From Neckera pumila (lineage: Eukaryota > Streptophyta > Bryopsida > Hypnales > Neckeraceae), in the NCBI GenBank assembly GCA_963969595.1, contig OZ018415.1, positions 21,395,782-21,459,781 on the forward strand: DNA of 64,000 nucleotides, given 5' to 3'. The notes beneath the pieces were generated by a model. That model had not been told where the DNA came from. It did no database searches and worked only from the letters and a program-made list of their open reading frames with translations. Position numbers and translations under genes: made by a program. Positions 8,296 to 63,815 of the stretch are shown here, one piece after another (positions within the stretch are counted from its first letter, which is position 1; every line of letters starts with the position of its first letter).

Positions 8296-10359
8296 TGAAT
8301 TTTTAGTGTTTTTGGCAAACTATCTTTCTCGACAAATATTAGTTGATTTGTATGTTTGGTCCTAAAATTAACAAAAGGAAATGGAGAATACCATAATTTA
8401 TTGTCACTATCCCAATACCAAAGCTTTACATTAATGTTAAGAGGATGAATTCTATGGATGAAGACTCCAGAGAGGAAAAGGCAGCCTCTCTGAAGGCTAC
8501 GGAATGTTATATTTGGCTCCCAAAATTCATAGTCATTTCAATTTTGGGAAAAAATTCCGAAAAATTTGCAGTCCCCATATTTCATACGGAGTATCTTTCA
8601 ACACCTTTCAACAAATTTGCATTCCTTCATACTGCTCGCGATCTGTCTCAAAATCTGACTATGAGTGATCCAACCTTACATCGACCAAACCCACCCATGG
8701 AATATTCAGGGAATCGGACCCTACTTCCTTGGATTTCTCAATGACTTTGCGAAGACCCTGGGAAGGAATACATTCATAACTTGGTGTGATTCACCAGCAC
8801 TTACTAAAAAGTTGGCTTGATTTGAGTCAAAGACCTAAATTATGTAATAGTGCAGGGTATGAACTGAAAGTATGCTCTCCCGTTCCCAATGTGGAAAGAG
8901 TCTTCGACAGCTGCTCACGCTGACGCCCGTGATGTCATCGGCAGCGGGACCCTACCAAGGAAGGATTCAATTCGTCGTCATCAAGCAGTAGTACAGAATA
9001 CGTACATACTCCTCCCGAAATAAATCATGTGACCCAATTGACCAACCGTTTGTGCATAACCGTCGAATTGACCAAATACAATTAATTAGTGACCCGTGGA
9101 GGGCGTGGAATTGAATCTTCTTTGGAAGCTGGAACCCCTCCCCCCAGGACTCCTCTGACTTCCGGCCTCGGAAGAGAGTAAGTTAAGTTCCCCTGCGACC
9201 AACTCGAACAACTAACGGCTTCGACTTCGGACGACACGTCCCATATTTCGCGTTGCCGGCTGCCCTCGATCGGCGGCGCAGCGCAGTTTAACACGAATGC
9301 TCTTCCAGGCCACTGACTGTCAGATCATTACCCACTTCCTTGGAAGGCGATTTGAAGCGGTGTTGGAATGGACCAATTCTTCGGTCTGTCAACATCAGGT
9401 GTCCGCTGACAAAGTCCGCCGAATTTGAACAGAGATCGCGGCACCATGCATCAGAAATAAAACACCATCACACTCTCATTCTATCACAACAATAACATCT
9501 GAGTGATCGACCAACACAAACTGAAGCTCGACGCGCGCAGAAGCCAGTGATATATCGAACTACCGATCGAACACCCGGAGCAACAATTGGACACTCGAAG
9601 CCAGCATTAGAATCCCTTCGATCTGTGTTCAACTGAAAGCTCTTGCTATCTGATCCGATCCAAGCTTGCAGACCGGCCAGAGTTTGAGTTTTCAGTCCGG
9701 GAGCTAATTGCCACCATGGCCGTGACGGGCGATGGGGGATCATCGAAGTGGAGGCCTCCATCCAAGTCTAGTCCCATGGGGGACGGCGGCTCCTCCAAGT
9801 GGAGACCTCCCTCGAAGCATCAGTGAAACCAGCTCCATGGGTTCATGACAACTGCTCGAGATCATCTTCGATTGTTTACGAATGTAGCGGATTGACGCAA
9901 GTAATCCAGCTTCAATTGAATGTCCCGGCCAGTTCTTTCGTTGAGGGCAACAAGTTGTTCAGCCAGAGAATGAATTGCAATGGAATGTCCAAGCTAGGAA
10001 GATCTTGCAGATCGATCGAATATGGACCGAGCCAGCCAGATTCCCTGGCCTGAATGGGGAGATGTCGTCAGTTCCATGAATTACAATCCATTAGCTCCGA
10101 CGGAGCCTCAGCTCCAAAGTCAAAATACCAAATTATAGTTTGTCCAGATTCATTTTAGATGACCAGAGTAGTTTCCTCATTCATTATTCACACATTGTGA
10201 AAACGATTTGACATTAATATTACTACGGCTTTGAAGCTGCTCACTTGACACCTTACATAACTGAATGCATATGAAAAGCTTCCGTTTCTTGAAAGATTTG
10301 TGCGCTTCGATTGGTTCTTGTCTGTCAATGCTGAGCTGGGCTCATTTGTGAGATAAATT
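8296..10359. repeat. Duplicated block A (copy at 56064-58127)
   Basis: This 2,064-bp segment matches 56064-58127 at a constant offset of 47,768 bp. No mismatch or indel appeared wherever the two were compared, and the short open frames inside are identical. Homology continues, diverged, to about 10450. The block holds an upstream region with a GC-rich core (about 8880-9450), the short peptide gene at 9716-9826 and its 3' region. Near identity implies a very recent duplication, gene conversion or assembly artefact. Confidence 0.9.
9716..9826 (+). CDS. Two-unit SKWRPPSK repeat peptide (36 aa), copy A
   Basis: A 36-codon ORF with a near-ideal eukaryotic start context (GCCACCATGG), ending in TGA. 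The peptide is MAVT, then GDGGSSKWRPPSK, linker SSPM, a second GDGGSSKWRPPSK, then HQ. The two units differ at nine nucleotide positions, all synonymous third positions (Gly, Asp, Gly, Gly, Ser, Ser, Arg, Pro, Ser codons); none changes a residue. The same core recurs at three other loci. There is no hydrophobic signal peptide, no cysteine and no membrane segment; the product would be small, basic and disordered with one Trp per unit. The motif GAGCTAATTG lies a few bases upstream in all four copies. I do not recognise the family. The selection pattern supports a translated peptide; localisation and function are unknown. Confidence 0.75.
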   Translation: MAVTGDGGSSKWRPPSKSSPMGDGGSSKWRPPSKHQ

Positions 10360-11939
10360 AAAATTCAGCCATACAACAATTGATGTTTAGTCAGTGATGA
10401 TGCAACCTCCAAACGTTTCTGATAACACAAAACGTGATTACATATTGATATTCCATGTTGAGCCTCTTAAACTTTGCACAAGTGAGTGAGTGCTGAAAGC
10501 GTTGCATGATTCCTGCATGAAGCGCGTTCCAAAATTTGCATGCTTGCTGAAGCACGTGGTTCCAGCATGTTCCACAACGCTGTGTATCTAGCGAAAAGTA
10601 TTGCTGAATCACGTTCCGACCAGAACCCTCCGAATTCGAATACTACCGGAATGAACGTCCAATTAGTTGAAGAAGAAGTATCGACCTTCAAATGTGGCAC
10701 TGCATTGGGCATGAACTCATTCAGAATTTTCGTTTTCCTTGGGAATAACGCGCGAAAGTTTCTAATGACACAATCAACGTTCAGTGGATGATCCATTTCG
10801 ACAAGTTAAGGTTACTTTACAGCTAGATCCTAATTCATCAGCAACAGAAAGACATGCAATAGCGCTTGTACAATTGGCGTGACAATGTATGCTCTGCAAC
10901 CTAATTCGAATATGAAATTAATTCATTGAGAAGATGAAAAGCCCTTGTTCGAGGGTCTAGCGATCAACTTAAATCAGATTACAATTGGACGAGTGCGTCT
11001 GAATTCTACTCCCTCAAAAGGGCAAATGCAGAAGTGAAGGAGCTTTGGAGACTCAGTCTCGGCCATTGTTGACCCACCAATTCAAACCTGAAAGTCTCTA
11101 GAGGCCCAAGTGAGAACAACAGACGATTCGGAGAACATTGTCCGGAGAAGGAATAGTGTGCCGCACGTGGGACTCGCAAGTTCCCGTTCTACTATACACC
11201 GATCTTCAATCGCGTTCCGTTGTCCCTCCCGGTGGAGGTCGCCTGATTGTCGGCCCTCGGTCACTGCCCTGGTCTTCTTCGTCAGGTGACTGCGATCGAA
11301 TTTCTTCATTCTTGAACCGCAACTAACTCAGCTAATCCCTGTGATGCTTCCAGCCGTAGTAGAAATAGAGATTTAGAATCTGAAGAAGTCGAACGCACGT
11401 ACAATCATGCAGTCATTTCTGTTGAGCCAGCTGAGGAACTAACCAATCAGAGACGTTGTTGCAGCAGAAATAGCCCTTGCGCCATGCCGCCATGCCTAAC
11501 AAGGAAGATTCTGAATCAATTCTGTGGAGGACTGTTGTCACGAACGGATTGCAACTGCGGTAACTTATTCAAGGTCTGCCGAGTACAGAGCATGCTCATC
11601 AGCCCGGGGCAGAGTGGACAGACGAATAGCTCCAATGCTGACCCCACAATGCCACATCGACCAGAAAGGTCACTGACATGCTCCTGCAATCGACGGGGGC
11701 CTTGCAACCACTGCTGTGTGAAACTCACTACCGGTACTTTCATCCAGCTACTGTTGTCCATGACCAATCAGGTCCACACATTAGCACCCGAATTATCCTG
11801 ATGGTGCTCACCACTAGTATATACACCTGTCACTCAAACTGTGTCTAAGCATGCTTAGGCAAATCGCTGAGAAACAACCTTGAACCTTTTCCCCTTGTAT
11901 TAATATTAATTCATCTGTCATAGAATAGACAATACCGGT
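9827..11939. other. Conserved 3' region, then spacer
   Basis: Sequence to about 10260 is conserved among the peptide-gene copies and probably represents their 3' UTR and flank: for example TTCATGACAACTGCTCGAG after the stop, ATTTGACATTAATATT near 10205 and a TTTGAAGCTG motif near 10230. From 10450 to 11939 I see no supported gene. A G-box-like CACGTGG lies near 11165, and 11484-11801 is open and cysteine-rich but lacks homologous copies or splice context. Confidence 0.4.
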
Positions 11940-15815: not shown

Positions 15816-17605
15816 TTAACAATTCCGAGCGGACGTCACATCCCCTTCTGCATCCTTCGGAACCGCACAGCCTTCGGAGGAGCCCACTTCTTCCGCCATG
15901 TGCATCCGTTGTCGCCTGGCCCGTTTGGTAGCGACTTTGGATCCAGCAAGATTGCCTTTCACAAAGACGCGTGCGCGTCGCCGAACCTACACATGAAGAT
16001 TCTATGTGAAATGAGGAAACTTTCCCCTTCTCTGGAGGTGAGCATCGGTTCCAACTTTAAAATATTGGCCGACAAAGGCTGGATAATGTAACACGAGGGA
16101 CTGGTCTTCAAACCAAGCTAATTTCTGGACTTGTTGATATAGAAGCATCTGCTTCAAGAGGATCCGTCCAGAGCAAAATATGGCATGGTCATCCGACACG
16201 TCTTGTCCGAAAGGAGGGGGGTTCTCTGACACGTATTGGGTGACACTGCGATGGGATCGAAGCAGACCCAAGAGGTACGGGCGCAACGATCGGTGAAGAA
16301 AGTCATCTTCCTCGCTGCCCGTGTACGACTCTGGGAATATGGCATTGTAATATGGGTTGAGAATGCTGTTGAATGGACAACTGTCAATGAGCAAGGTGTT
16401 GGAAGAATTGGCCCTCATGGTGGTCGAGGAAAACCTATTTCCTTCCCAAATTACTTTGTGCAGAACTTTCAGCCGCAAAAGCCCCTCCGGGTGGTCGGCA
16501 AACTCAACAAAAGTGTCGAACGCGATAGAGGTATTGCAATCCATGTCCGTGGGGTGTGCCGGACAAAATTGAAGGGGATAATCACACTTCGTCACGGACC
16601 AATCACGGGGAAAACTCGGCACGGGGGGGCACCTGCACTCCCACCACGCCCAATACTGGATGATTGTCGTGTAGTCCTCCAACGCCAGGATTGTGACCCT
16701 AGCCGTCTCACTGCCCCAGAAGAGAAAATTCACCACCAGCTTTGCGACGGCGGCCGGCAGCCTCATCCAGATGGCTAATCTAAATTTGGAGGTCAAGCCC
16801 TTCAAGAAGGGGCGCATACCGGGACGACAGTAAAGTGTATATTCGCCGAACACGTGACGTCTCGTGGAATGAAAATCCTCCTCGGTTGGTGTAGCACCCG
16901 CGGGCATGGATTCGGGCACAACGTGGCCCTCGTGCTTAATACGACACAGGACCCCTTCTACCTCCAGAACAATCAAGTAGTCCCTAACGACAGCTTCTGC
17001 GGGGGTCTTCGCGGGTATCGGCACCGGTGCCTGCGTAGGCGATCCCCGTACTCTAAGTACGATTTATAAAAACGGTAGAGGAAGTTGACGACGACAGAAA
17101 ACGCAACTCCGGAAATGGCAGGAATCAAGTCCTCCTAGAAGGATCAAATCCAAGATGAAAGGACCGTGCTACCAAATCGAGCAGGCAATTATGAGAGACT
17201 TGGATTGCGAGTTACCTTCATTACGACGTTTGCCACCAAGTTTGCTGCTAGAGGAAGGCCGATCTCCGTTGCTGGGGTTGGTCCCACTTCCATCCGGACG
17301 AGTGCGACCTCCTCGTCTACAGCCAGAGTTGGGAGTTCCAAGTCGATTCCAGGAAGTATTGGCACAGCATCAGGAGTTGCTAAATCATGCTGCACGGGAG
17401 GGAGGAATTCATTCGACGCGGGAGCAACCTCTTCCATGTTCGAAGGGAGGACAGCCACGGCATTGGGCGCAGGCACGTCCAAGGAGACCGAAGGAACCAA
17501 GTCCACAGAAGTATGGGCGACGATTGGGTTATGTTGTTGGCAAAGGGGCGTAGCGCAATGCAGTGTTGGATCCGTGCCATGTGACGACCAGAAGAGCCTC
17601 GTCAC
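15816..17605 (-). pseudogene. FCP1/NIF-like phosphatase homologue, degenerate and probably broken
   Basis: Main exon reads 17030 to 16002. Near its start, YLIVLEVEGVLC aligns with HAD motif I of FCP1-type phosphatases (normally DxDGT/V), followed by YCRPGMRPFLKGLTSKFRLA (the RPG-FL-fIAVW-like region) and, about 200 residues on, SSNTLLIDSCPFNSILNPYY and AIFPESYTGSEED. The HAD motif III region is therefore kept, but both motif I aspartates are Glu, so catalysis is doubtful. An upstream exon 17605-17216 (low-complexity, Ala/Pro/Val-rich) joins in phase 0 across intron 17031-17215 (ATGAAG then GTAACT; GCAG then GCACCGGTG). After 16002 the frame continues through TAG 16002 and TAG 15987 to a basic tail (KRARRQRMHM) and TAA at 15816; the two TAGs could be decay, or a short intron ending GTGTAG could remove them. 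Family members dephosphorylate nuclear phosphoproteins; activity of this copy is not supported. Confidence 0.55.
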
Positions 17606-17929
17606 CCTAAATGCACATTATACGAGGGTGACTACAAGGCACATCAAATGCAACAGGAAAGACAAGTGCACCGAGTAACAATGTACACAACGCCTATCGA
17701 GCGCATAGGATTTTAATGAAAAAAAATCAATATATTCAAAATAGTTTACAATATTTACAATTTGAAGTATTTTGTACAAATGTGGGCGAAGGTTTGTCTC
17801 GACTACGTCTAACATGCAATGACATCCGCTAGCACTACGGCCCACGGCTCTGCCCCCTCTCTAGGACAAACATCGATCGGCTTGGCATAACTCCCTCACA
17901 TAGCGTACGCCTATCTACAACTAAGGGAG
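17606..17929 (-). terminator. Probable 3' UTR of the 17.9-23.3 kb gene
   Basis: Downstream of the TAG at 17930-17932 the minus strand holds several more TAGs, then an AT-rich stretch with TTGTAAATATTGTAA (about 17740-17765, minus strand), which resembles a plant far-upstream polyadenylation element. The sudden composition change supports TAG as the true terminator of that gene. Confidence 0.4.
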
Positions 17930-19294
17930 CTATGTGGAGGGGTTACCCACCGTGGAATCCTCTTGATCCACAGCTAGCGTGTCCACTTGGGCAGGGTCCG
18001 CTTCCGCCACCGAAGTTTGCCTCGGACCGAGTGGGGCCTGCAGCATTGGAGCATATTCCGCAGTGAAGTTAGTGAAGGAGACCTCGACATCTCCAAGTTC
18101 CACATCCAGGGCGTAGGGGTCATTGTCGTTGAAGCTCGAACGATGCACGGGTTCAAAGGAAGGAACGAAAGGAAATTGACTGAGGGCGAGGTCATCGAAC
18201 TCGGGGTCGAGAGAACCACTCACCGGTACAATCGCTGGGCTGGGCGAGGACATCTTCAAGAGGCCCGTGGCTGCAGTTTGGGTTGCCAACTGCGAGTTTG
18301 TCGTCGACACCCCGGACGCGTTCTGCAACTCGCTCGCAGGGGTTGGACTGGGAGCCGGCGTCGCTGTTTCTCCCTTCATGGTCTTCAACCACGCTTGGAT
18401 ATTATGCAGCATAGAGCGGGTTTCTGCAAATTCGACCGCCATTTGCTCCCTACTTGCCGCATCAGCTTGCCTCTCCGCTGCCCTTATCCTATCCGCCTCT
18501 GCCTCCCTGTCCTTCAACTCCTAGATGGTCTTCGTGAACCCCTCCATCGTCATAGACTGCTTCTTCCTGAACCGGTCGCCCAGACGTTGCAGATGCGAGA
18601 CTTCCATCTTCACATTGGCCTTATCCTCCGAAGGAGCCTTATCCTTATTGCTCCCGCCCTCAGTCGCTCCAGCCGCACCTTGTTCGGATGGAGCAGCGGC
18701 GGCCCTGGAATGCCTTATGGCGTCCACCGTGTCCTTGTACTCCGCCGTGGTTGCTGCAGCTCGATTCAGACGCGCTTGAAGCTCAACGTCACTTTCATTG
18801 TCCTCATCATCGTCTATGACGATGACTTCAACCTCGACCTTCTCCTTGGCTTTCTCCGCGGGCAGATCTCGCCTCATCTTCCGGATAAAGTCGATGCATA
18901 TTCTCTCCTCGGGAGAGGGTACAAGAAGCTGCGAGACGAGGGTGTCGATCTGGACTTGGGCAATTGTAACCATCTTGGCCTTCTCCTTACCGCCCACGGG
19001 AGCCAGGATCACTCCATCAAGACGAGCCCGCGTCTCCTTCACCCTATCTGCCAAGGAGTTATTGTTCGGCGGATTGGGCACGGAGCCCACCTCGGCACGA
19101 ACCGTATTGAACTCTAGCAACTCGTCAGCAGTCATAAGCGACTTCATGTCGTCCACTTGCTGCTGCATGTCTTCGAGTTGCAACCTGAGGGGTGCCTCAG
19201 GTGTGGCCGATTTGGCTCCAGCAGAAGTGGTAGCTCCTGCAGCTGGCGCGTTCGATGAAGGTGGAGGCGCGGCTTGTGAAGACGATCCGCCCTC

Positions 19295-19704
19295 ATCAGA
19301 ACGTGCGTTCTGATCCAGTAGAGAGGGAGTGGCAGGGACGATGGACGGAGGGGTCATCACAATATCTGCATCGTGATATGGCTCGTGGTAGGTTAGGGTG
19401 AGAGGGGCAACATGATCAGATGGGACGCCCCCACCCCGCCCAGGTGGAGACGTAGGTCGGGGAGCAAGAGGGTGACCACCTTCGGAACAGACGCTCTGAT
19501 CCTGCACAAACGGAAACAGGGGCCTCGAAGATGGAGGATCCAAGGCCTCATCATTCTCGTTCCTGTCTCGGTCCCTGGGAGACGAAGGGCGGGGCGACGG
19601 AGTGTCGAGGTCTTCAGAGCGGCCGCCCTGATCCCGCCTCGATGGAGTGTATGCTTGTGTAGGACTACCGCCGAGAGCGACACGCTCAGGACGATCGTCT
19701 TGAC
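19295..19704. repeat. Coding copies of the 20-bp palindrome (four)
   Basis: 19295-19314 (ATCAGAACGTGCGTTCTGAT, a perfect inverted repeat around TG), about 19481-19500, 19613-19632 and 19685-19704 match the palindrome field upstream of the gene. On the coding (minus) strand they encode DQNARSDE, DQSVCSE, DQGGRSE and QDDRPER, making the protein repetitive at exactly these points. Confidence 0.65.
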
Positions 19705-21757
19705 CCTCACGATGGAATCGGGGGACCGGAGGTGTCACCGCACCGCGCTCACTAGCGAGATCATTTGTGACCGTCGTCTCGCTGGCCGTCGGGTTCTGTG
19801 ACTGCTCCACCAAGTCATCTGACTCCGTGTCGCTAGGTTCGCGATCTCCTGTCTCATCCTCATCCTCATCCTCATCTTCGCTGTCGTCGTCGTCGCTCTT
19901 GGGTACGCCATCGTCGTCCCCACCTTCGGACTCGACTCCCACGACAGTTGCATCATCGGCTACGTCGCCGGCGTTGTCGTCGTCGGCAAATTCGTCGACG
20001 ATATTCCGGGCGGCGTCGGCCTCCACTTCTTCGGCTGTCCGAATCGGTTCTTCCTCCAACGTCATCGGAGGCGTATTCTTGTCGTAAACATACGTCAGGG
20101 CGTATGGAGGAGGGACCAAGAAGTCGGGCCACATCATGGAATCAATCCGATTGTGAACTCTGTGCCGGAAAAGACCTTTTTCGGATGGGAGCATGAAGGA
20201 CTCGGAGCTACGGCACAACATCTGCAGTCATAAGCCAAGACGTTGTTAGATAATGCGGTACTTAGACTTCACCAACTTGGTAGGATACGATAAGTGGGAT
20301 AATAGAAAGAGCAGGTTACTATCTTACCGTGCAGGCAGAGATCGGCTTGGCCCCGGCAAACAAGAGCATGACCGTGCCTTAGTCCCTGCAGAACTTGTCG
20401 ATGAAGCGGAGGTACGTCTCATACCGGAGCTCAAAACCAGACAACAGCATCGGATAGTCATGACGACAGACATCTGCAGTTTTGTAGCTCTTGTCGTCCG
20501 TCTCCAACGGCTCCTCTTCATCCGCCGAAAGTTTTGGAACGATGCCCTCCTGGTCCACGAGCTTCAAGTTCATGAAACTCTTGGAGTATCTTTGTAGGTA
20601 CATGACGATGTCTTCGCTCTTGTCCTTCACGAGCGGTTTGCCCTTGCTGCGCTTGTAAACGCAGTCGCGCGTGAGTCTGTGTCCCGGCAAGATGTCCTTC
20701 AGCATGTCCTGCACTGTGGCCAACCTCCTCTTGTTTAGGATGACCATCCACGTGTGCACGAGCTTGGACATATTCTTGTTCGTGACCTTGTCCACGTGCT
20801 TCAGCACATACTTGTATGCAGAGTTGATCTCCATTTTCCCCACCTTGGGAAATTGGCGGAGGTCCATGATCCTGACCTCGGCGTACTTCCAGCTAGCGGG
20901 TCCGGGAGAGCAGGTCGACCAGTATTCATTACGGTAGAGATAGAGTTGAGGGTCAAAATTCTTCGTTGGTTGACTCCACCTGCAAACTGAGGCGCGTGAG
21001 TACTGACCAACACTGGTCGACCTCTCGTTGTTCTGCATGACTCTGTCGAGGGCCGCGACGAGGTCATTCGGTTTCGGTTCCTTCTTCGCCCCCGACTTGC
21101 ATTCCACCTTCAGCCAAGAATCACCAAGTCTTTGAAGAACCCGCATGTGGAAGCCGTTTATATCGAGGACCGCCTTCAAATTCCGCCAGTTCTCTAGGGC
21201 GAGGTCACCACTGTCCTTGTCGAAGACGTCCACGGCCTCAAGAATTCCCAATCGCTTGGCCCTTGCTACCAACTCCCTCACGAGTACTGTCTTGTGCTTC
21301 TTGTTCGTGCACCACTGACCGAGCGAGAGGGCCGTGTTCCAGCAATACGGCTCCTCAGGTACACTTTGGGTGGGGCGTCCAAGATTTTGCGTCCCAGCTC
21401 ACCAACCGCGGAATCGTCCAATCCGGACAATGCCCTCAACTGATTATGGGACCACGTGATTGGCTTGTATGGCTTGCAATCCCCATCCGCGTCTACCTTT
21501 TCCTTGAAAGGGCAGTCCGAATCGAGGTCGTGCAAATCGCCGGAATCCTCCGAGTCGAAGACACTCTTCCAGACCGCCCATGTGTCGTCCGAGGCCATGA
21601 AGAGCTTGCGCTCCCCCCCCTTCTCGAACTCATAGGGCTTTTTTGTCCCATTGTTGTTCTTTGGACTGAAGGTTGCATCAAAACTCTACTCCACCTTCTC
21701 CCGGAACACCTGCACATGGACGGAAGACATACGTAAATGGGCAGGTAACACACAGGT

Positions 21758-21939
21758 TTAGGACGGCCGTTCTGATCCTACCTCCTACTGCAGACACTAT
21801 CGATATGTGGTGAGGGACAATCAGTTTGAACCATGTAGAGCTAGTCCACTGATCTCTGGCAGTATTATTAACTACTTCATCTACAATGTACTGCATGATT
21901 ATAACTACAAGACGTGAACATCAGAGCGTGCGTTCTAGA
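21758..21939. repeat. Two palindromes inside intron 1
   Basis: TTTAGGACGGCCGTTCTGAT at 21758-21777 and ATCAGAGCGTGCGTTCTAGA at 21920-21939 lie within the 250-bp first intron of the 17.9-23.3 kb gene. Confidence 0.7.
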
Positions 21940-23343
21940 GTGTTGGCTTGTCATAATACCTGGAACCTCTTGAGTTCGTCTTGGTCTTCCGGATTCGCGT
22001 TCTTCCGGAATATCGACGGTTTTCCTGCGGCCACCCAGAAGTGCCGGCAGTGAACAATGGTTGCCGACACGGACGTCAGGAACAAGATGCTTGTGTTCTT
22101 GTCGTTGCACTTCGATGACAACGCGTGAAGGTGGTCCTTGTTCTCGGACCATACGATCTCGCATATCCACTTCTGCATGGTCTTGGATATGTTATCGTCG
22201 TCGACGGCGAACTCCCCCGAAGTTATCTTCCCAGTGGCCTTCCTTGTGTATTGGCCGTTGATGATCTTGAATTTCCCGGCACCGACGCAGTCATTCCAGC
22301 AGGTTGGCCTGACCGGCGTGTCGGGCATGACTGTCAGGGTTTGTTTCGTGAAATTCAGCTTCACGATTTGGTCGAGAATTTTCACCACTCCTCTATCTTG
22401 AAGCGGCCTATAGATTATGCCCGACTTCTCGTCTGCGTTCACCATGTCCTCCAAGTTCAACTCAAAGTAATTGCCACGGCCGAAGATGTACATGTAACGC
22501 GATTTCTCCTTGAACTTCTTGTTGGCCTAGGCCTGGGCCTTCAAGCGCCTCCTCATTTCGGATTCCTGCCCGTGCTTAGCTTGCGGTTTGAAATCCACCG
22601 GCTCTATGAGCTTCTCCGGGATGTCCGCTGGATTGAACGGAACTGTATTCGGGTTGTCAACCCATTTTCCGTCCTTTTTCTTGTATGCGATGGACCGAGC
22701 TTGCTCTTCGGTTATTTCCGGGTACTCGAGTAATGAGCTTTGCGTCGACATGCTCGGGGCTCCTTCGGACGTCTCTAAACTCGGCGGGTTGACTCGCTGT
22801 TGCTTGGTCCACCTATTCGCATCCTCGCCTTCCGCAGGCGACGATGGACCTGCGTCAGCCTGTGCGGGCTTGCGTTTCTTTGTCTTCACTTTGACATTAG
22901 GGCGCCTCTCCTTAGAGATAGCGTCCTCCGCTTTCTCACCCGTCTGACTTCTGTTCGGTGGTTCGGGTGCCGCCGTCTGCCGTTCTGGAGTCTGTTGCTG
23001 CTGTGGTGTAGAATGACCGGCTGCGGATTGTTGTTGCTGGTTCTGCACCGGCACTTGGCTTGGTGGGTTTGTTCTAAGCCAACTTGGAGCGGTTGTAGCC
23101 GTCTTTCGGATTTGCCTTGCTAGGACAGAGGCAGCCGTCCCCGTTGTGACGTTTCGAGGTGGGTTTGGAGCAGCAACGGCGGACTCCCCCATGAGGGCTG
23201 TCGAGGGTGGTGGCCGGGAGCGGGGGACGGCTCCAGAGCCTGAGGCGGCAGTTTTCTTGGCCTTCTTCATCGGCTTCGACTGAGAGTCCATTTCTCGATG
23301 ATGAGATTCCTGAGAGGCCATCTTCTGTGTTAGCGTAGCCGTG

Positions 23344-24611
23344 TGTATAGAACTGGCGTTCTAAAGGTACATGCTAATCGTTTTTGCACACGAACTTTTG
23401 CACATCAGACCGCGCGGTCTAAACTGGATATGCTATATGCCAAGCACAATTTAGCAACAAGTCCTCGGTTGTTTAGACCGCGCGCTTTGATGTATTTTGT
23501 CATCCCAATATTACTCGTCATGGTGTTCTCGATCACGGGTTATTATTAAATATTTAATTTGGTCCACCCAAATGTGTAGTGTCCCGCCCTAGCCTTGACG
23601 CGCTAAGCAACTTGCATCTATACAGCTATGAATCTAGAGTCTGATCTCTACTTACGTAGGGTTCAGACCGCCCGGTCTGATCTTTACATGTCACATGTGA
23701 ATGTGGCCTTCACTATTCGTCTTATTGCATTGTATGTTTACTCATATTCATCCATGCTGACTACTTTCTACTTGCGTATCTAGTGTTAGCTTAGGCTGAC
23801 TGAATTAGACTTAGTTCCGTTTTCTATTCATGCTACAGTGCACAATCAATCTTGATGTGACCACTGTTTAGACCGGGCGTTCTGAATCTATAGACATCTG
23901 TGGTATATCATTTAGTGGTGGCCTACTTTTTTAGCAGTTTGCCCTTGGACTGTTGAGCTATTGGTTCTCAGATGCTTATGCATTGATTCTCCCTCGTAAT
24001 TTGTTTTCTAAATCTGACAAGTTTGTTTTTGACTTTTCCTAAATCCGAGGACACCCTTCATAATTTGTTTTAGAGTGGACGTCTTGATGTTCTTTTTTTC
24101 GAGCGGGCGTTTTGATGTTTCGCATATTTTAATTTTTTTCGACTGTGTTTTCGTTGGGATCATCATATCTGCTCGAGAACCGATTGGCTGTTGTCATCTA
24201 GTTTAGGGGGGGTCGTTCTAAAGTTTAGGGTTCTAGATTTGGTCTGTACACCTAGACACAATTGGTTTTGGTTACTCTACCTTTGCATTCTCTATCTGTT
24301 CAACTTTGGATTGGGTGTTCTAATCCATTCTCCTTCCTTCTTGTCCTAGTCGTTTCGAGCAGCCGTTTTAGGCCTGAACTACTCTGGGCTTTCTACTTTG
24401 CCGCCAGCTTTGGAGCGGGACTCCAGTTCTATTGTCCGGTTTTCGTTGCCTCTTTTCAGATGTTCAGAGCGGCCGCTCTGATACTTGCCCTTCACATCCT
24501 GTGAAGTTGTTTACAGCGGCTACTCTGAACATCTTTCCCAGCTACAGTTGTTTAGAACGGCCGTTCTAAACATCCTCCTCGGCAGGAACTGTTTAGAGCG
24601 ACCGTTCTAAA
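23344..24611. repeat. Field of about 13 dispersed 20-bp palindromes
   Basis: Copies start near 23344, 23404, 23472, 23662, 23867, 24069, 24097, 24202, 24352, 24463, 24510, 24551 and 24592. The best is a perfect palindrome, TTTAGAACGGCCGTTCTAAA (24551-24570); 24463-24482 is TTCAGAGCGGCCGCTCTGAT. Consensus TTYAGANCGNNCGNTCTRAA with a variable CG core. Spacing is irregular (about 30 to 200 bp), unlike a satellite. The field lies between the gene start (23321) and a GC-rich candidate leader (about 25.3-25.6 kb). Candidate roles: protein-binding sites for a dimer, or the subterminal repeats of a DNA transposon. No open reading frame here is convincing. Confidence 0.8.
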
Positions 24612-30262: not shown

Positions 30263-32053
30263 CGATCAGAGTGAACCGGTCTACTGTCGGGTATTGGTAA
30301 GACTAGTGATCCTCACGGCTCACTCTCTCTCTCTCCTTTCAGGTGGAAGGTATTAACTCAAAGCTCCGACACCAACAACCTTTTTTCTCTCTCAATAACC
30401 TTCCAGCACTCTCGCCTGCAGTCTCGTCAACTCAACACACCAATACTACCTCTCAGACCAGAAATCAGTAATTGCGTACGCTGTATAATTCTCCGTCAGG
30501 GCAAGAAATCACAAGTGACCAACCTTTAGACAGATAGGATCTAAAAGAGCCAATCTCAGCAGCTCTTAGTAATTACCCTAATTAAGGCCTTGCCCATTAA
30601 TCCTGCCCGTTTAGGATTCCCGTTAACTAATGATTAGAACGTGCCCCTTGTTCCCTAGGGCTAAGTAGGTCACCGTTGGATGGCGGTGTCCTGTTTTCCC
30701 TTTCCTGACCTGGTCTAAGCAAAGTATAATTCCGGTTCCTTGTTTCCGGAACATTCAATTAGCCTTTACTCTAATTCCTGATCAGTCCATTTCCGGTTTC
30801 CGGTTCTAAACATTAGATGGTCTACAACTATCTAAAAATCAAAAAAATTTACTACTAAGAAGAATATTATTCCTTCATTTATATTTTAATATAGTAAAAC
30901 TAGATTTTCATGTTCCGACACTTGTCATCCTAATTTCATATCTACGGGGGTATTCTAGGTTTATCATTTTTTCTACTTGATCCTATTATGCAACATTCTG
31001 TAGTTATTAGAAGACATGCAATGTTATTCTATGAATAGTACATTATACCAAATGAGATTATAATTCTTAATTTAAATATTTTTTGAAAAAAACTTTTATT
31101 TGTTAGTAGTGTCAAATTTAGTTATTTTATTGTTTTGGTTGCTATGATCTGGTCAATTTTTGACAGAAATCTGTTGAAATCAAAGAAATTTTCTCAAAAA
31201 TTCACTAGATCAACGAGACCTAAACAACAGAAAACTTGAATTTTCTTCTAGTGTACTTGCATGTATTCAAATATCGACATCGCTGACTGCACCTCCAAGA
31301 AAATGACATACCATCCAATAACTGTTTGAACATATAGTAAGAATATACCATAGGCTTGTAGGTGTCTCCAAATGTAGCAAATGTTTTTTAAACTCACAAA
31401 ACATAATTAATTCTAATATTCTGTTGACCACAAAACTTAAAATATTCATTTGGAAAATGAATTTCTATACACCCAGCTTGGGTGCATCACTCTTTCTATG
31501 TCTTATACCCCGTGCGGCAAGGAGGTATTTTTTGGGGGTCTATTTATCTCTAAGGTCTTAAAAAAGGGGCCCGTATAATTATATAATACGGCAAAATTAC
31601 TTATATTATGGTACCCTATCATTACTTATACTACCCATGTCACAGCGATTCTTTTCCCCTTCTGTCACCCTATTTTTTCCACCCAATTTTTTTTGCAAGG
31701 TACATTGGATGGTGTTACAAGTATCTTCATATTTTGCATTGAATTTTTTTAGTAGACACTTTTGTTTTCCTGAATTCCTTGTGCATGCTTGACAATCTGA
31801 ATTTGTATTTTTTTCCTATTTGAATATTTATTTGTAAATTTCTAAAGATTTTAAAATACTAAAAATTATTAACACGTGTGTACCCTAGAAAATCACTTAT
31901 AAGAATAATACATTGAAGAAAGGTAGATCTATTATAAAGATTAATTTTTTTATATTAAAAGTCTTTGTTTATGAATCATTGAAAATGACAATGTTCTTGG
32001 TAGCCCAGAAAATATTAAATGGATTCAGCATCATCTTATGAAGATAAGCCAAA
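30263..32053. other. 5' flank, then AT-rich spacer
   Basis: 30263-30830 retains TTCCGGTTCC/GGTTTCCGGTT motifs and CT-rich stretches typical of the adjoining element's promoter side. From 30830 the sequence turns sharply AT-rich with no supported gene. Confidence 0.4.
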
Positions 32054-32114
32054 AATCCTAAACCCAAAACCCTAAACCTTTAAACCCTAAACCCTAAACC
32101 CTAAACCCTAAACC
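32054..32114. repeat. Interstitial telomeric repeat
   Basis: About seven CCCTAAA units, the first ones degenerate, embedded in AT-rich DNA. This is the plant-type telomere repeat. Confidence 0.95.
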
Positions 32115-33289
32115 CACATACAGACAGTAGTAAATGGTGAAAATGAAGACCCAAATGAGCAGTTCCTAAATTAGATGTACAAAAAGTGAAAGGATCACAT
32201 TAGTAGGCCTATTAAGATACTTGGAATACATTTCACCCTTTGCATGTCTCCTACTTTAGTTGTAAATACTCTATACTTTTTTATCTCCAAAAAAGAAAAT
32301 CTTCTCTACTTTTGGCCACATGTCATTTTTAAAATGTAGTAAATGATCCACCCGGGACAGCCAACAAACGCATGTTTGTCATTTACGGGATAATTGAAAA
32401 ATAAACATTTGAAGAAGTTGTAGCACCTTTTGGAGATTTGTAATTGTCCAAATGCAATGTACGATATATTTACACTGATAGAGTAGGTGTAATCACAACG
32501 GTATTACGTATATACAGAGATTAAATTGGTCTTCATGTTATAAGTGTGCTTGAAAAATAGATTTTATAAATTATGCACTAGCCTCCATGGAGTCATTAGC
32601 TTAGAAGTTTAGTGTACACCTGAGATCGGGGCCTACTTTATGGGAGGTTGTTTACCTATTATATTTGTAATTTACTATAAGTGAAATATTGTTAGAAATA
32701 CTTTTTATTTTCCATTTAGTATAGCACCCTACATTTTAAAAATCTTTTCTGCCTTCTGTTGTTTTCTTCTCCTATTTTGCTTTACTCTTTTTTCCCTTCT
32801 CTTCCGAAACCCTTTATTATGGTTATTTAAAACTCATATATACGCTAATTCAGGAAACTTATTCTTCAGCGTATTTGTATATTTTTTCCAATATCTTTGA
32901 ATATACTTGAATCATCACAATTGTTTTTGTATTCTTGATATATGAATTTGAAATCGAACATTAGAGCTACACTAAAACCTGCAAAAATTGATCCTCTCAA
33001 CACCCTAAGACCTCTTTAAACAAATAGGGCCGGGTGGTCCCGACTTGGGGATTAAAATAAGCTGTAGAACAAAATGACAGCTTCCCTAGGAATAGTAGTG
33101 CACCTCGGCCTTGTCCACAAAAGAAAAATCAATTAGTTCCAGCAGGTCATTTTCCTCATGTATCCTTTGGGCAACTTCTTGTGTAGTGCAAATTCTTTCT
33201 AAAGCAATTACTCTCTCTAAAGCAATCTTGTTAGGCAGTCCTGGACCAATCAGGTTAGAGAGGTCTTATTGTACAAATGTTTTTTAAGC
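32115..33289. other. AT-rich spacer, no gene seen
   Basis: No coding, RNA or repeat feature could be supported. Confidence 0.5.
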
Positions 33290-48269: not shown

Positions 48270-49960
48270 GCACATGGAATACCGCCATTTTAACGAAATA
48301 TGCGATGCTAGCTACAGCAGTCTATACATCCGCAGTTCTGATTTGACACACATATTTAGCTTCTCATCAATTTGAGTGGCATTCATTCAATTGTGTGAAC
48401 TGGAAGTGCGATCTAGCTGAGCCAAGCTTGTAGAGCCTCCTACACTTCAAGAGAGCTAGCTTCAGAAGTCTACTGAAGTTCTTAGAGAGCGAGCTAATTG
48501 CAATCATGGCCGTGACGGGCGATGGGGGATCATCGAAGTGGAGGCCTCCGTCCAAGTCTAGTCCCATGGGGGATGGCGGCTCCTCCAAGTGGAGACCTCC
48601 TTCGAAGCGCCAATGAAACTAGCTTGTTGGGATCATATCATGACAAAGGTCTGATTGAGATCATGCATTCATGATTGTCGGCAGAGGCAACGAAAATAAG
48701 AATTTCCAGCTTCGTTTGAACAACCGGACCAATTCATCCCTTGCTTGCATTGCTTGCGTCAGATCGATCGATTCTCCAATCAAAGGATCAACTTGAATGC
48801 CAATGTAGCAAGCTTGGTTGTCCAGGAGAATATGGACTGAACGACGTCTTCAATTCATTGAGTGACCACGACCATCGAATTTTGAAAGAGATCTCGATCA
48901 TACAACTCATGAGCTCCTCAGTAGTTAACAATTCTTTTGTACAGATTCATTAGATACCAATATACAACTGACTAGAGTAGTTTCAGTTTCTTTATTAATT
49001 CATACATCGATTTCAGCCTGGTCGTTGCGACAATGATTTGACACTAATATCATAGCTTCGAAGCTGCCCATTAATTTATTAATATATACACTAGACGACT
49101 GCATGTTCGTTTGAAAGTTAAGGCCTCCGATTGACTGAAACACTTGTCTCGGCGTTGCATTTATGCATTGGGCTGCTGATTGTCATGCACGATATCGACT
49201 GTCTGTGGCTTTAATTTGTGGGCTAACTGGATCTGCGATCAATGTGTTGCATCTAAAAATTGTGAGCATTATGCCGAGGAGTCCGATTGAGGACTTCATG
49301 CCGAGCTTCGAACACGGGACTGTAATTTTTGGAATGCTCAGATTCAAAATTGTTGTTTCCTTCAGTTCTGAGTATATCAGCAGTTTTGGGTGACACTCAT
49401 ATTGAAAGAATATCCATTGTGGAAAGGACAAATTACAACCTCAAATTGATTAGCTGCAGGAATTGAGTAACCACCTTACCGATAGATTCAACGCGAGGCA
49501 AACGTTCAACATATCTTACCGCCAATCGGGTGAACTTAAGTAAAGTATGGTGTCAATCGCTAGCTAGACAATTAGAGGAAGCAACTATTAACATGTATTA
49601 CAAATCCACGCACCATGCAAGCAACTATCAGTACAATAGCTAAGAGTGTTATTTTCCAAGTGAAAGCTGTGGTATTAATACTGATCATATTCATTAAAAT
49701 GGCATGCTTGTGAGAGCCTTGATTGTGACATTCAAATGCACAAAAGCTCTAATTAAAAAGAACACAAAAAATGAGATTCTTACACGTATGAAGTTCCGAA
49801 GGGTAATTAAAAACGGCAATTCCTGAAATTGTGCAATTGTATGTGCTTTATCATCATTAATTACTTCCCACTCATGACTTTGAGAGTCACAATAAAAGCT
49901 TCTACCAACTTACAGTATACCTCTGCATAAATTTCTGGTTAAGCCCTCTTGTCTGTCTAC
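48270..49960 (+). repeat. Peptide-gene block B
   Basis: Contains the 48506-48616 peptide gene. Its 3' region (48620-49960) matches the tail of block C at about 58400-60150 with scattered differences. Upstream, similarity to blocks A and D is confined to the last few bases before the ATG (GAGCTAATTGC), so this copy has a different or strongly diverged promoter. The left edge near 48270 carries the repeat seen inverted at 13488-13530. Confidence 0.7.
48506..48616 (+). CDS. Two-unit SKWRPPSK repeat peptide (36 aa), copy B
   Basis: MAVT, GDGGSSKWRPPSK, SSPM, GDGGSSKWRPPSK, RQ, then TGA. Relative to copy A there are three substitutions inside the repeat units, all synonymous (CCA/CCG, GAC/GAT, CCC/CCT). 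The only residue difference is in the tail (His to Arg); CAG/CAA is synonymous. The start context is ATCATGG. Although its upstream DNA is unlike the other copies, the coding unit is conserved, which argues that the peptide rather than the surrounding repeat is what is maintained. Confidence 0.7.
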   Translation: MAVTGDGGSSKWRPPSKSSPMGDGGSSKWRPPSKRQ

Positions 49961-56063: not shown

Positions 56064-58127
56064 TGAATTTTTAGTGTTTTTGGCAAACTATCTTTCTCGA
56101 CAAATATTAGTTGATTTGTATGTTTGGTCCTAAAATTAACAAAAGGAAATGGAGAATACCATAATTTATTGTCACTATCCCAATACCAAAGCTTTACATT
56201 AATGTTAAGAGGATGAATTCTATGGATGAAGACTCCAGAGAGGAAAAGGCAGCCTCTCTGAAGGCTACGGAATGTTATATTTGGCTCCCAAAATTCATAG
56301 TCATTTCAATTTTGGGAAAAAATTCCGAAAAATTTGCAGTCCCCATATTTCATACGGAGTATCTTTCAACACCTTTCAACAAATTTGCATTCCTTCATAC
56401 TGCTCGCGATCTGTCTCAAAATCTGACTATGAGTGATCCAACCTTACATCGACCAAACCCACCCATGGAATATTCAGGGAATCGGACCCTACTTCCTTGG
56501 ATTTCTCAATGACTTTGCGAAGACCCTGGGAAGGAATACATTCATAACTTGGTGTGATTCACCAGCACTTACTAAAAAGTTGGCTTGATTTGAGTCAAAG
56601 ACCTAAATTATGTAATAGTGCAGGGTATGAACTGAAAGTATGCTCTCCCGTTCCCAATGTGGAAAGAGTCTTCGACAGCTGCTCACGCTGACGCCCGTGA
56701 TGTCATCGGCAGCGGGACCCTACCAAGGAAGGATTCAATTCGTCGTCATCAAGCAGTAGTACAGAATACGTACATACTCCTCCCGAAATAAATCATGTGA
56801 CCCAATTGACCAACCGTTTGTGCATAACCGTCGAATTGACCAAATACAATTAATTAGTGACCCGTGGAGGGCGTGGAATTGAATCTTCTTTGGAAGCTGG
56901 AACCCCTCCCCCCAGGACTCCTCTGACTTCCGGCCTCGGAAGAGAGTAAGTTAAGTTCCCCTGCGACCAACTCGAACAACTAACGGCTTCGACTTCGGAC
57001 GACACGTCCCATATTTCGCGTTGCCGGCTGCCCTCGATCGGCGGCGCAGCGCAGTTTAACACGAATGCTCTTCCAGGCCACTGACTGTCAGATCATTACC
57101 CACTTCCTTGGAAGGCGATTTGAAGCGGTGTTGGAATGGACCAATTCTTCGGTCTGTCAACATCAGGTGTCCGCTGACAAAGTCCGCCGAATTTGAACAG
57201 AGATCGCGGCACCATGCATCAGAAATAAAACACCATCACACTCTCATTCTATCACAACAATAACATCTGAGTGATCGACCAACACAAACTGAAGCTCGAC
57301 GCGCGCAGAAGCCAGTGATATATCGAACTACCGATCGAACACCCGGAGCAACAATTGGACACTCGAAGCCAGCATTAGAATCCCTTCGATCTGTGTTCAA
57401 CTGAAAGCTCTTGCTATCTGATCCGATCCAAGCTTGCAGACCGGCCAGAGTTTGAGTTTTCAGTCCGGGAGCTAATTGCCACCATGGCCGTGACGGGCGA
57501 TGGGGGATCATCGAAGTGGAGGCCTCCATCCAAGTCTAGTCCCATGGGGGACGGCGGCTCCTCCAAGTGGAGACCTCCCTCGAAGCATCAGTGAAACCAG
57601 CTCCATGGGTTCATGACAACTGCTCGAGATCATCTTCGATTGTTTACGAATGTAGCGGATTGACGCAAGTAATCCAGCTTCAATTGAATGTCCCGGCCAG
57701 TTCTTTCGTTGAGGGCAACAAGTTGTTCAGCCAGAGAATGAATTGCAATGGAATGTCCAAGCTAGGAAGATCTTGCAGATCGATCGAATATGGACCGAGC
57801 CAGCCAGATTCCCTGGCCTGAATGGGGAGATGTCGTCAGTTCCATGAATTACAATCCATTAGCTCCGACGGAGCCTCAGCTCCAAAGTCAAAATACCAAA
57901 TTATAGTTTGTCCAGATTCATTTTAGATGACCAGAGTAGTTTCCTCATTCATTATTCACACATTGTGAAAACGATTTGACATTAATATTACTACGGCTTT
58001 GAAGCTGCTCACTTGACACCTTACATAACTGAATGCATATGAAAAGCTTCCGTTTCTTGAAAGATTTGTGCGCTTCGATTGGTTCTTGTCTGTCAATGCT
58101 GAGCTGGGCTCATTTGTGAGATAAATT
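56064..58127. repeat. Duplicated block C (copy of 8296-10359)
   Basis: See block A: same length, same content, constant offset, no difference found. The left boundary is at T56064; the right boundary is at 58127, where 28 bases absent from block A are present before homology resumes. Confidence 0.9.
57484..57594 (+). CDS. Two-unit SKWRPPSK repeat peptide (36 aa), copy C
   Basis: Identical to copy A in nucleotide sequence, start context (GCCACCATGG) and flanks, because it lies in the duplicated 2,064-bp block. Its downstream region differs: a B-type tail begins near 58400. Confidence 0.75.
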   Translation: MAVTGDGGSSKWRPPSKSSPMGDGGSSKWRPPSKHQ

Positions 58128-60250
58128 TTGAGTGTGGTCAATCTTGTGTGCACTTAGAATTCAGCCATACAACAATTGATGTTTAGTCAGTGATGATGCA
58201 ACCTCCAAACATTTCTGATAACACAGAACGTGATTACATTATTGACATTCCATGTTGAGCCTCCTACACTAAGTTGCACAAAGTGATTGCTAAAAGCGAT
58301 GCATGATAAATTGTGTTCCAAAATTTGCATGCTTGCTGAGAAACGTTGCTCCAGCATGTTCCACCATGTATTGCTGAACCACGTGAGTCGTAGAACCCTC
58401 GGAATTATATCATGCATTCACGACTGTCGGCACAGGCAACGAAAACAAGAATTCCAGCTTCGTTTGAACAACCCGACCAATTCATTCCCTTCCTTTTTTG
58501 CTTCAGATTCTCCAGTCGAAGAATCCAGTGCAGTTGATTGAATGCCAATGTAGCAAAATTGTCCAGGAAAATGATATGGACTAAACGGCGTCTTCAATTC
58601 ATGGACCTCGATCATCGAATTTCGAAAGAGATCTCGATCATTCCATAAGTTACAACTCCTGAGCTCCTAAGTAGATCACAATTCTTCTGTACAGATTCAT
58701 TGGACAGCAGTATACAACTGACCAGAGTACTTCTAGTTTCTTTATTCATACATCAATTTCAGCCAGGACGTTGCAAGTTGCATCAATGATTTGACACGAA
58801 TATCGCTGCTTCGAAGCTGCCCGTTTATTAATTAATTTATTAGGCGACTGTTCGTTTGAAGATTGATTGAAACACTTGTCTCGGCGTTGCATTGGGCTGC
58901 TGATTGTCATGCATGATATCGAATGTCTGTCTTTCATTAGTGGGCTGACTGAATCTGTGATCAATGTGTTGCATCTAAAATTTTTGAGCATCGACCATCT
59001 CGAAGAGTTCGATTGAGGAACTGGTGCTGAGCTTCGAACACGGGATTGTAAATTTTGGAATGAATAGAATCTGGTTCAGATTTGTTGTTTCCTTCAGTTC
59101 TGGGTGTATGTAGTCTTGGGTGAAACTGATGTTGAAAGAGTATCCATCGTGGAAAAGACAAATTACAACCTCTAAATAATTAGCTGCATGAGTTGAGTAA
59201 GTGCTCCCTCAAATTCAACGCTAAGCAAACGTTCAACTTCATTAGAGAAAATTTCAGTTTTGGAGGGCTCCAGACACCTCCAGCGCCCTTCGAAGTACCC
59301 TAAAAGTTTATTTTTTGAAGCTGAATTTTTTTCCCCCTCCTATTTCCGCACAGCTAAAACTGCAGTGACAATGGTTCAGGAACCTAGTTTTACAAGTAAA
59401 AAATTAATTAAAAAAAAGATTTTAATCTTAAATTATATATATATACGAAATCTGACTACTCATCGAGTGTCTTTTCAAGATTGATAGGCCAAGTTTGAAA
59501 TAGCTTGGCATGTCAATCTAGAGCAGCTTTTTAAAGACTGGTTTTTTCTAATGTATCTAACTTCCAATTGGGTAAACTTAAGTAAACTATGGTATTGATC
59601 GGTAACTAGATAATAAAAAGAAGCAACTAATAACGTTCATTACAAATCCACACACTATACAAGCAACTATCAATACAATAGCTAAGAGCCTATGTGTATA
59701 TTTTCCAAGTGGAAAAGGTGGTAATAGATATTTTGTTAAAATGACAATATTCTTCCGCCATTTTTCCAACTATGTTTTAAGACTGGTATAGATTTGAGAG
59801 TTGAGACCACATGATCTAAAATTTAGGATTGGTTTACATTTCAAACCACATAGTCTAAACTTAAAAGTGCCAAGTTTGTAGAATATTGCCATTTATCCGA
59901 ATATCCATCTGGCATAATATTGATTATATTCATTAAAATGGCTTGTTTCAAAGAGCCGCAATTGTAACATTTAAATGCACAAATCTCTAAAATTGAGACT
60001 TTTATGAATATGAAGTTCTGAAGCCTGAAGGGAAATTGAGGAATGCCAAATTCTGAAAATTATGCCATTCTATGTGATTTATCATTATTACTTCCTACCC
60101 ATGACTCCTTGAGAGTTGCAAAAAACAATCCTATCAATTTGCACTGCACTTTTGGGTGATTGCAAGAAATACCTGTCCTATTTTGCATCACTCTATATGC
60201 AATGTGTTGATTTGTAAATTTGTTTCCTGAATATAACTTTTGCATTCTAG
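58128..60250. repeat. B-type tail fused to block C
   Basis: From about 58400 the sequence follows block B (GCATTCACGACTGTCGGCAC; CCAGCTTCGTTTGAACAAC; AAGCTGCCCxTTxATTAAT; TTGTGTTGCATCTAAAA-like motifs; ACAATAGCTAAGAG) to about 60150 against 48640-49950. No second peptide ORF lies between, so the two 3' regions are in tandem. Confidence 0.7.
59240..59553. mobile_element. MITE with CATTAGA termini, copy 1
   Basis: Begins CATTAGAGAAAATTTCAG and ends CTGGTTTTTTCTAATG, an imperfect terminal inverted repeat. The interior, GGAGGGCTCCAGACACCTCC onward, is related to the second copy. It lies within the B-type tail. No ORF. Confidence 0.6.
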
Positions 60251-62660: not shown

Positions 62661-63368
62661 TTTTAAACCCCTATGGTGATTGATGAAAATGTATGTGAAC
62701 ATTGCAGCCTGGCCACCCTGGATCCGGAGCATTTGCGGTTCTGCAGAGGTGCTGCATGCCGGGAGTGCCTTCTCTGGACGAGTTGCGCGCAGCTCCTACC
62801 TGCCATGTGCATGGGCCTATGGTGTTCCAGAAAGCTTCCCATGGCGAAAGCTAGTCTCCGAAAGCGGCTCAGGCTGACGAACGTGCTGCCGGCAGCGGGA
62901 CCCCGCTTTGTCATCATCTGATAGTACAGAATGTCAATCTGTCGGCGGGATATATTTCATGACCAAATTGACCAACGTAAGTACCTGTCTTAGTTACCAA
63001 ACAATTCATATCAGTGACAGTCAAATTGAATCTTCCTTCGAAACCCCGCCCTGGCCAGGACTCCTCCTCTGACTTCCAACCTTGGAGAATGGTTAGTTCC
63101 CCTGTGACCAACTCGAACCAACTAACGGCTTCTACTGGGTCTCATCGGACAACACGTCGCTTTGCCCGACCTCGCCAGCCGGCGCTGCTCATCGCGAATG
63201 TTTTCCTATGCCTCTGACTGTCAGATCATTACTTCGGAACTTAGAATGCGATTTGAAGCTGGAGTGCGCTCGAGTGGATTAATTAAGCCCTTGGTCTGTC
63301 AAGTTCAGGTGTCCGCTGACAAAGTCGACCTAATTTGAACAGAGATCGCTGCAGCATGAATCAGAACG

Positions 63369-63375
63369 TATAAAA
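63369..63375 (+). promoter_or_regulatory. TATA box of peptide gene D
   Basis: TATAAAA at 63369-63375, followed about 25-30 bp later by CTCTCATTC, a plausible start region. In blocks A and C the equivalent site has decayed to AAATAAAAC (about 9455 and 57223). The distance to the ATG is about 280 bp. TTGACC/TTGACCAA sites (W-box-like) lie upstream in A, C and D. Confidence 0.55.
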
Positions 63376-63653: not shown

Positions 63654-63815
63654 ATGGCCGTGAGGGGCGATGGTGGATCATCGAAGTGGAGACCTCCGTC
63701 GAAGGCTTCTCCCATGGGCGACGGAGGATCGTCCAAGTGGAGGCCTCCGTCCAAGTCTAGTCCCATGGGGGATGGCGGCTCCTCCAAGTGGAGACCTCCG
63801 TCGAAGCGTCACTGA
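63654..63815 (+). CDS. Three-unit SKWRPPSK repeat peptide (53 aa), copy D
   Basis: MAVR, then three GDGGSSKWRPPSK units separated by ASPM and SSPM, ending RH and TGA. An in-frame ATG two codons upstream (63648) could add Met-His. Pairwise, the three units differ at five to seven positions, every one synonymous. This copy has one more unit than the other three, so unit number changes by 51 bp while the core is kept. As for copy A there is no signal peptide or known domain. Because it has the intact TATA box and is the most diverged in flanks, it is the best candidate for the expressed gene. Confidence 0.8.
   Translation: MAVRGDGGSSKWRPPSKASPMGDGGSSKWRPPSKSSPMGDGGSSKWRPPSKRH

Follow-up and report, generated by a model that had tools for sequence, protein, structure and literature searches.

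Does a stretch of moss DNA in which one short peptide core is spelled out nine times, in differing codons, carry genes for a functional peptide, and if it does, what would such a peptide do? The question is raised by a window of 64,000 nucleotides from Neckera pumila (the whole stretch analysed here; C8:21395782-21459781 of a 339.5-Mb assembly in 18 contigs). In it, an initial annotation made from the sequence alone had recognised four loci encoding nine copies of GDGGSSKWRPPSK and proposed a short repeat-peptide family under purifying selection.

Reading frames and repeat units in the window

Both the loci and the units were recovered. All four ORFs lie on the plus strand: ORF A (9716..9826, 36 aa, start context GCCACCATGG, first unit at residue 5), ORF B (48506..48616, 36 aa) and ORF C (57484..57594, 36 aa, identical to A) hold two units each, and ORF D (63654..63815, 53 aa, with a further in-frame ATG 6 nt upstream) holds three, giving nine in total. 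Pairwise comparison of the nine GDGGSSKWRPPSK units returned zero differences at first and second codon positions in 36/36 pairs; the units differ at synonymous third positions only, as had been claimed. Recomputed third-position differences were nine within A, five to seven within D and one plus two from A to B, in agreement with the earlier counts of nine, five to seven and three. For the two units of A, the probability of obtaining nine synonymous changes out of nine at random is about 3.5e-6.

All four loci are present, but A and C represent one recent duplication: 2.3 kb at 8296-10575 recur at 56064..58364 (plus strand) with 97.4% identity and carry C along. C therefore gives no independent support, and the nine ten-codon cores come down to five distinct DNA sequences because A and C are a single duplication. 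A 3' flank of the type seen in the paralogue M12 adjoins the copied block from about 58392, and C is a hybrid locus, built of 2.3 kb of A-type sequence followed by this M12-type flank.

The 5' flank of B (48326..48505, plus strand) is homologous to M12. This homology reaches no farther than 180 bp from the ATG on the upstream side, so that the family's TATA region is lacking, and gives way to an insert-like segment containing a DUF7869 ORF; B may thus be silent or use a new promoter. Four ATGs occur in the 250 nt upstream of B. The DUF7869 ORF (45694-46935, E 3e-41) follows another long ORF (44548-45591), and this stretch upstream of B may represent a mobile element by which the promoter of B was displaced. 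The ORFs of A and B are 95% identical over flanks of about 45-58% identity, the flanks of B and M12 are 84-87% identical near the ORF, and synonymous distances amount to 0.23 (A-B) and 0.12 (B-M12). Since the ORFs of A and B are close over very different flanks, exchange of sequence between paralogues probably adds to their similarity. A to B is the weakest of the three comparisons in the initial annotation; the within-gene comparisons, whose units are not homogenised, stand.

Other features of the window should also be mentioned. These are a minisatellite at 38875-39676 (147-bp units, 5.5 copies, 94% matches) and an interstitial array of the plant-type telomere repeat AAACCCT (TTTAGGG-type) at 32053-32115 (8.9 copies). 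Long ORFs lie on both strands at 16005-23373, the longest on the minus strand and one with a match to the NLI-interacting-factor phosphatase family (NIF, E 1.3e-7); this region may be an element with a captured gene fragment. Pfam scans detected NIF and DUF7869 in the window (10 ORFs), and DUF659 together with sub-threshold RING matches in the cluster stretches (10 ORFs).

Extent of the family and selection on its core

The genome-wide search that the initial annotation had recommended extended the family to at least 22 loci, 20 of them on C8 within 422 kb, one on C2 and one on C5; this is a lower bound, as members lacking the searched words escape detection. A first protein search of the genome gave 18 matches, all on C8, and when a type 2 member served as query, 14 matches were obtained, including one on C2 (E 0.076). 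The DNA pattern GDGG-x-S-x-W-x-P matched 41 times genome-wide, 40 times in C8:21060818-21482955 and once on C5, against 0 matches for the reversed-pattern control. A laxer DNA pattern gave 47 matches, of which 40 lie on C8 and three correspond to the units of the C2 locus; the other four (one each on C1, C2, C4 and C5) were discounted by eye for a missing Ser or the presence of a stop.

Members fall into several types. Type 1 comprises A, B, C, D, M6 (21367853), M11 (21462624) and M12 (21482864) on C8, with which we grouped the intermediate M1 (C8, 21196435, minus strand). Type 2, with Cys-rich acidic linkers, comprises M2 (21212570), M4 (21245032) and M5 (21362202) on C8, and M3 (C8, 21223195, minus strand). 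Type 3 consists of six single-unit loci on C8 (L044, L045 and L047-L050; the stretch L044-L050 spans 21.06-21.14 Mb), and M0 (21201938) and L046 are single-unit outliers. The C2 locus (L043 1462-1590, minus strand; C2:40549923-40550035) has three units and reads MVMVRGDGGSSNWRQ..., and the C5 locus (L051) reads MSAAGDGGVSKWMP....

The conserved element is an N-terminal M-x-x-x-GDGG-x-S-[K/R]-W-x-P, single in 9/22 loci and present in two to four in-frame copies in the other 13/22, within products of 18-77 aa. Under the chosen start Met the first unit starts at residue 5 in 21 of the 22 loci, with an alternative in-frame Met possible in D and M6 and the unit of the C2 locus at residue 4 or 6. 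The residue before GDGG is variable (T, M, R, L, E, Q, A or F). Net charge runs from +4 to +8 in type 1 and from -4 to -7 in type 2, the core being unchanged between them. The absence of cysteine noted earlier is true of A-D; it does not extend to the four type 2 paralogues, each of which has five Cys. The cores of the C2 locus continue with Arg-Gln or Arg-Cys, not Pro, and resemble the outside proteins P0003, P0005 and P0010, with which this locus perhaps forms a separate older branch.

A dN/dS estimate over the units had been called for. Among 30 units in 11 ORFs (M11, M0 and type 3 aside) there are 22 DNA versions and 6 protein versions, with a pN/pS of 0.10 over distinct units. Pooled over paralogue pairs, which share ancestry and make these figures descriptive rather than p-values, pN/pS was 0.04 in the core and 0.55 in the linkers of type 1 (seven members, C omitted as a copy of A), and 0.05 and 0.41, correspondingly, in type 2 (four members). 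Core and linker had similar pS (0.36 versus 0.38 in type 1; 0.29 versus 0.23 in type 2). Whole-ORF pooled values were 0.25 (type 1) and 0.21 (type 2), with single pairs up to 0.64 (B-M12). Furthermore, differences among the six type 3 paralogues number 14 synonymous and 0 non-synonymous at residues 2-17, as against 5.5 synonymous and 37.5 non-synonymous at residues 18-31, the latter count perhaps slightly inflated by a frame change in L044 near residue 30. The C-terminal tails of type 3 differ among paralogues, partly by frame, over a constant N-terminal motif.

Unit number varies by whole units, and the sole broken unit, the middle one of M11, is an in-frame loss. Random replacements and frameshifts in further copies had been named as the observation that would speak against selection; further copies were indeed found, but their cores keep a pN/pS of 0.04-0.05, and the exception is the M11 unit, truncated in frame.

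Leaders and flanking sequence

A TATA-like element was identified by consensus match, with the transcription start inferred, upstream of A (ATAAAACA, 9457..9464, plus strand, -259), and by consensus match likewise upstream of C (ATAAAACA, 57225..57232, plus strand, -259) and D (GTATAAAA, 63368..63375, plus strand, -286). Matches at -259 to -326 were present in 9 of 12 ORFs scanned (M2, M3, M5, M6, A, C, D, M11 and M12). The scan missed a site of M1 at -252 and a CATATATGG-like site of M4 visible in the alignment, and found no TATA-like element for B; at the C2 locus, TATATA lies at -292.

The leaders so delimited are poor in upstream ATGs, with 5 observed in 10 inferred leaders versus 36.5 +/- 4.5 in shuffles (promoter-less B and the copy C omitted, 250 nt assumed for M1 and M4), while equal 3' stretches held 43 versus 46.9 expected. 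There is no ATG in the inferred leader of A (about 229 nt), in the 149-162 nt examined for each of the six type 3 leaders, or in the 300 nt upstream of M0. ATGs do occur upstream of the ORF in L046, L051 and the C2 locus, which may be decaying or differently started.

The proposal that a short encoded peptide is under purifying selection is thus borne out by the 22 loci, the pN/pS contrast of core and linker, the type 3 contrast and the depletion of ATGs in the leaders, and judged from these sequence features the coding peptide family is almost certainly genuine. The alternative that the ORFs are upstream ORFs or parts of a non-coding RNA, the peptide itself being irrelevant, could draw on their shortness and on the 150 nt that follow the type 2 ORFs, which at 79-87% identity are nearly as similar as the ORFs (87-92%); in this type the 3' UTR may matter too. 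Against it stand change confined to third positions, the contrast of core and linker, gain and loss of units in frame and the scarcity of upstream ATGs. Moreover, flank similarity within 2 kb falls in many frames on both strands, a pattern of plain DNA duplication, and Rfam returned 0 matches in the window. We consider this alternative highly improbable. A downstream main ORF was also sought, and no single long ORF common to members was seen within the 2-kb flanks. It should be added that the type 2 3' flanks (M2-M5) contain strongly conserved 3' UTR-like blocks, e.g. GTAGTCACCCAGAGTGACCAGTTGC, a possible regulatory element.

Relatives and candidate roles of the products

With D alone as query, a protein search returned P0001 at E 2.5e-6, which reads ...MAATGDGGSSKWKPPPKPKQSLGDGGSSKWRPPSKRDLGFVEDFLNIN; it is not from this assembly, since GDGGSSKWKP is absent among the 41 genome pattern matches. 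A profile search, in which the best 7987 candidates by shared words were scored, yielded 16 proteins at E<=10, of which ten reached E<=0.01, and the type 2 member M5 gave no match in a protein search. Among 15 of the outside proteins (P0011, with GDGGSS present and Trp absent there, is not counted) the first unit is at residue 5 in 7, at residue 2 in P0002 and at residues 50-61 in five others; in P0001 and P0006 it is at residue 5 when counted from an internal Met. The same spacing from Met to motif in several outside proteins further supports a selected peptide.

Named moss relatives among the 16 were weak ones, Sphagnum fallax P0008 (E 2.6e-3) and Sphagnum magellanicum P0016 (E 6.6), and no flowering-plant name occurred among these 16 matches from the 7987 candidates scored. 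Together with the TTTAGGG-type array of the window, these names point to a moss as the probable source. The Sphagnum proteins (BDL97_07G095400 of S. fallax and CY35_07G103200 of S. magellanicum) resemble the family in their consecutive units GDGGSSNYKPP, GDGKGS-x-W-x-PP and GDGGGSK, but differ in length (128 and 121 aa), in the position of the first unit (residues 57 and 50) and in the replacement of Trp in some units. In prokaryote genomes, 68 stretches matched the pattern and none was a relative.

The earlier statement that no known domain is present agrees with Pfam, where five members, two of them type 2, matched 0 families at E<=10; D had no PDB match at E<=10. AlphaFold prediction of D (12 sequences) gave no secondary structure, with pLDDT 61 and pTM 0.15. 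Motif fragments led to no description in the open-access literature, subscription papers being largely outside this scope, and the two papers that matched did so through GDGGSS alone and were unrelated by title and abstract; within that literature the family seems undescribed, as had been proposed.

These properties admit several roles. Small, hydrophilic, Gly/Ser/Lys-rich and predicted disordered (AlphaFold of D), the products could be stress protectants of the rehydrin, dehydrin or LEA sort, and rehydrins are reported from mosses (PMC4445806). A relation to the rehydrin Tr288 was considered at the level of Pfam, where nothing matched. In 700-nt upstream stretches, ABRE-type ACGTG[GT] sites were counted in 4/11 and DRE-type sites in 4/11 (raw counts, without a chance control); dehydration promoter elements were accordingly set aside as a common feature. 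LEA proteins are not known to carry a motif of fixed position with a conserved Trp. This feature, the flip of net charge between types 1 and 2, sites not common to members and the lack of any dehydrin or LEA family in the Pfam search of five members make such a role unlikely. The repeated Trp-containing cores, and in type 2 the CCGCDDGC-like stretch and the five Cys per member (four members), might instead indicate a RiPP-like modified peptide precursor or a metal-binding peptide. Yet no leader region precedes the first core, type 1 has no Cys, and Pfam found no BURP domain in the five members and no metallothionein domain in the two type 2 members, so that we regard this reading as very unlikely.

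The main and serious rival among the remaining readings is a leaderless phytocytokine or damage-signal precursor resembling prosystemin or PROPEP, a cytosolic protein that would be cut on injury, each unit then acting on a surface receptor. Such a precursor fits the conserved, repeated units with faster-evolving linkers, the Lys/Arg residues flanking the cores and the Asp inside each. It also fits the lack of a hydrophobic leader: judged by eye, the N terminus is hydrophilic and the motif begins at residue 5, which agrees with the earlier statement that no signal peptide is present. Systemin and Pep are single units at the C-terminal end of their precursors. Here the first unit at residue 5 leaves no room for a propeptide, single-unit genes keep their N terminus while the C terminus varies, and the position before the core has no constant residue that could mark a cleavage site. 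On these grounds the precursor reading appears possible but rather unlikely.

Leaderless peptides, including systemin, PEP, ZIP1 and GRI, are a defined and accepted class in plants according to a review (PMC11756074). The moss family shares with systemin/prosystemin and PEP/PROPEP its plant origin, shortness and lack of a visible signal peptide, and in type 1 also a basic, Pro/Ser/Lys-rich motif, but it is not a flowering-plant family, and its motif is N-terminal and often repeated, not C-terminal and single. It was set apart from them by this anatomy and the lack of Pfam and PDB matches rather than by direct alignment. Multi-unit CLE, CEP and SCOOP precursors likewise combine a conserved short unit, variable linkers and changes in copy number; the moss family differs in its motif and, by eye, in lacking their N-terminal secretion signal. 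D ends in PPSKRH, which resembles the end of IDA; other members end in HQ, RQ, GKAF, TTED etc., and the likeness was taken as coincidence. The Physcomitrium peptides PSEP1/3/18/25, encoded by lncRNA-sORFs, are comparable by description rather than by sequence, being peptides of 40-61 aa from short moss transcripts, and the passages of PMC9638090 consulted mention no repeat motif in them.

Our best explanation, which we advance tentatively, is that the products may be cytosolic, disordered microproteins displaying a docking motif; it is suggested by the lack of a signal peptide, the placement of the motif at the N terminus, the variable tails and the swapped linker chemistry. Without a visible signal peptide or predicted fold, they would remain in the cytosol or nucleus in a disordered state. 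The Trp-centred motif could be a short linear element by which the products dock to one conserved partner inside the cell, and additional copies would raise avidity. Linkers of differing charge, basic in type 1 and acidic with five Cys in type 2, might tune localisation, stability or a metal or redox response. Several points count against such docking. Extracellular recognition of the motif, following cell rupture or unconventional export, is equally conceivable, and conserved repeats with variable linkers are also typical of multi-copy peptide precursors. The paralogues are not independent, some seem to exchange sequence, and M11 tolerates its broken middle unit; the motif of the Sphagnum relatives is not N-terminal, and L046, L051 and the C2 locus have upstream ATGs.

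A wider reading, conceivable though we hold it with reserve, is a hitherto unknown, moss-wide class of leaderless microproteins, defined by an N-terminal Mxxx-GDGGxSKWxP, repeats within genes and tandem gene amplification, that would have its own dedicated partner or receptor; such a signalling or regulatory module may be peculiar to mosses. Gene annotation readily overlooks short leaderless genes, and this family makes a strong case, from sequence only, for a functional peptide. It offers a defined ten-residue motif at a nearly fixed N-terminal position, in several subfamilies and at least 22 loci of a single genome. If its partner were identified, the motif could be used directly to study signalling or stress biology in mosses, and the family would join the few leaderless peptide families of land plants other than seed plants.
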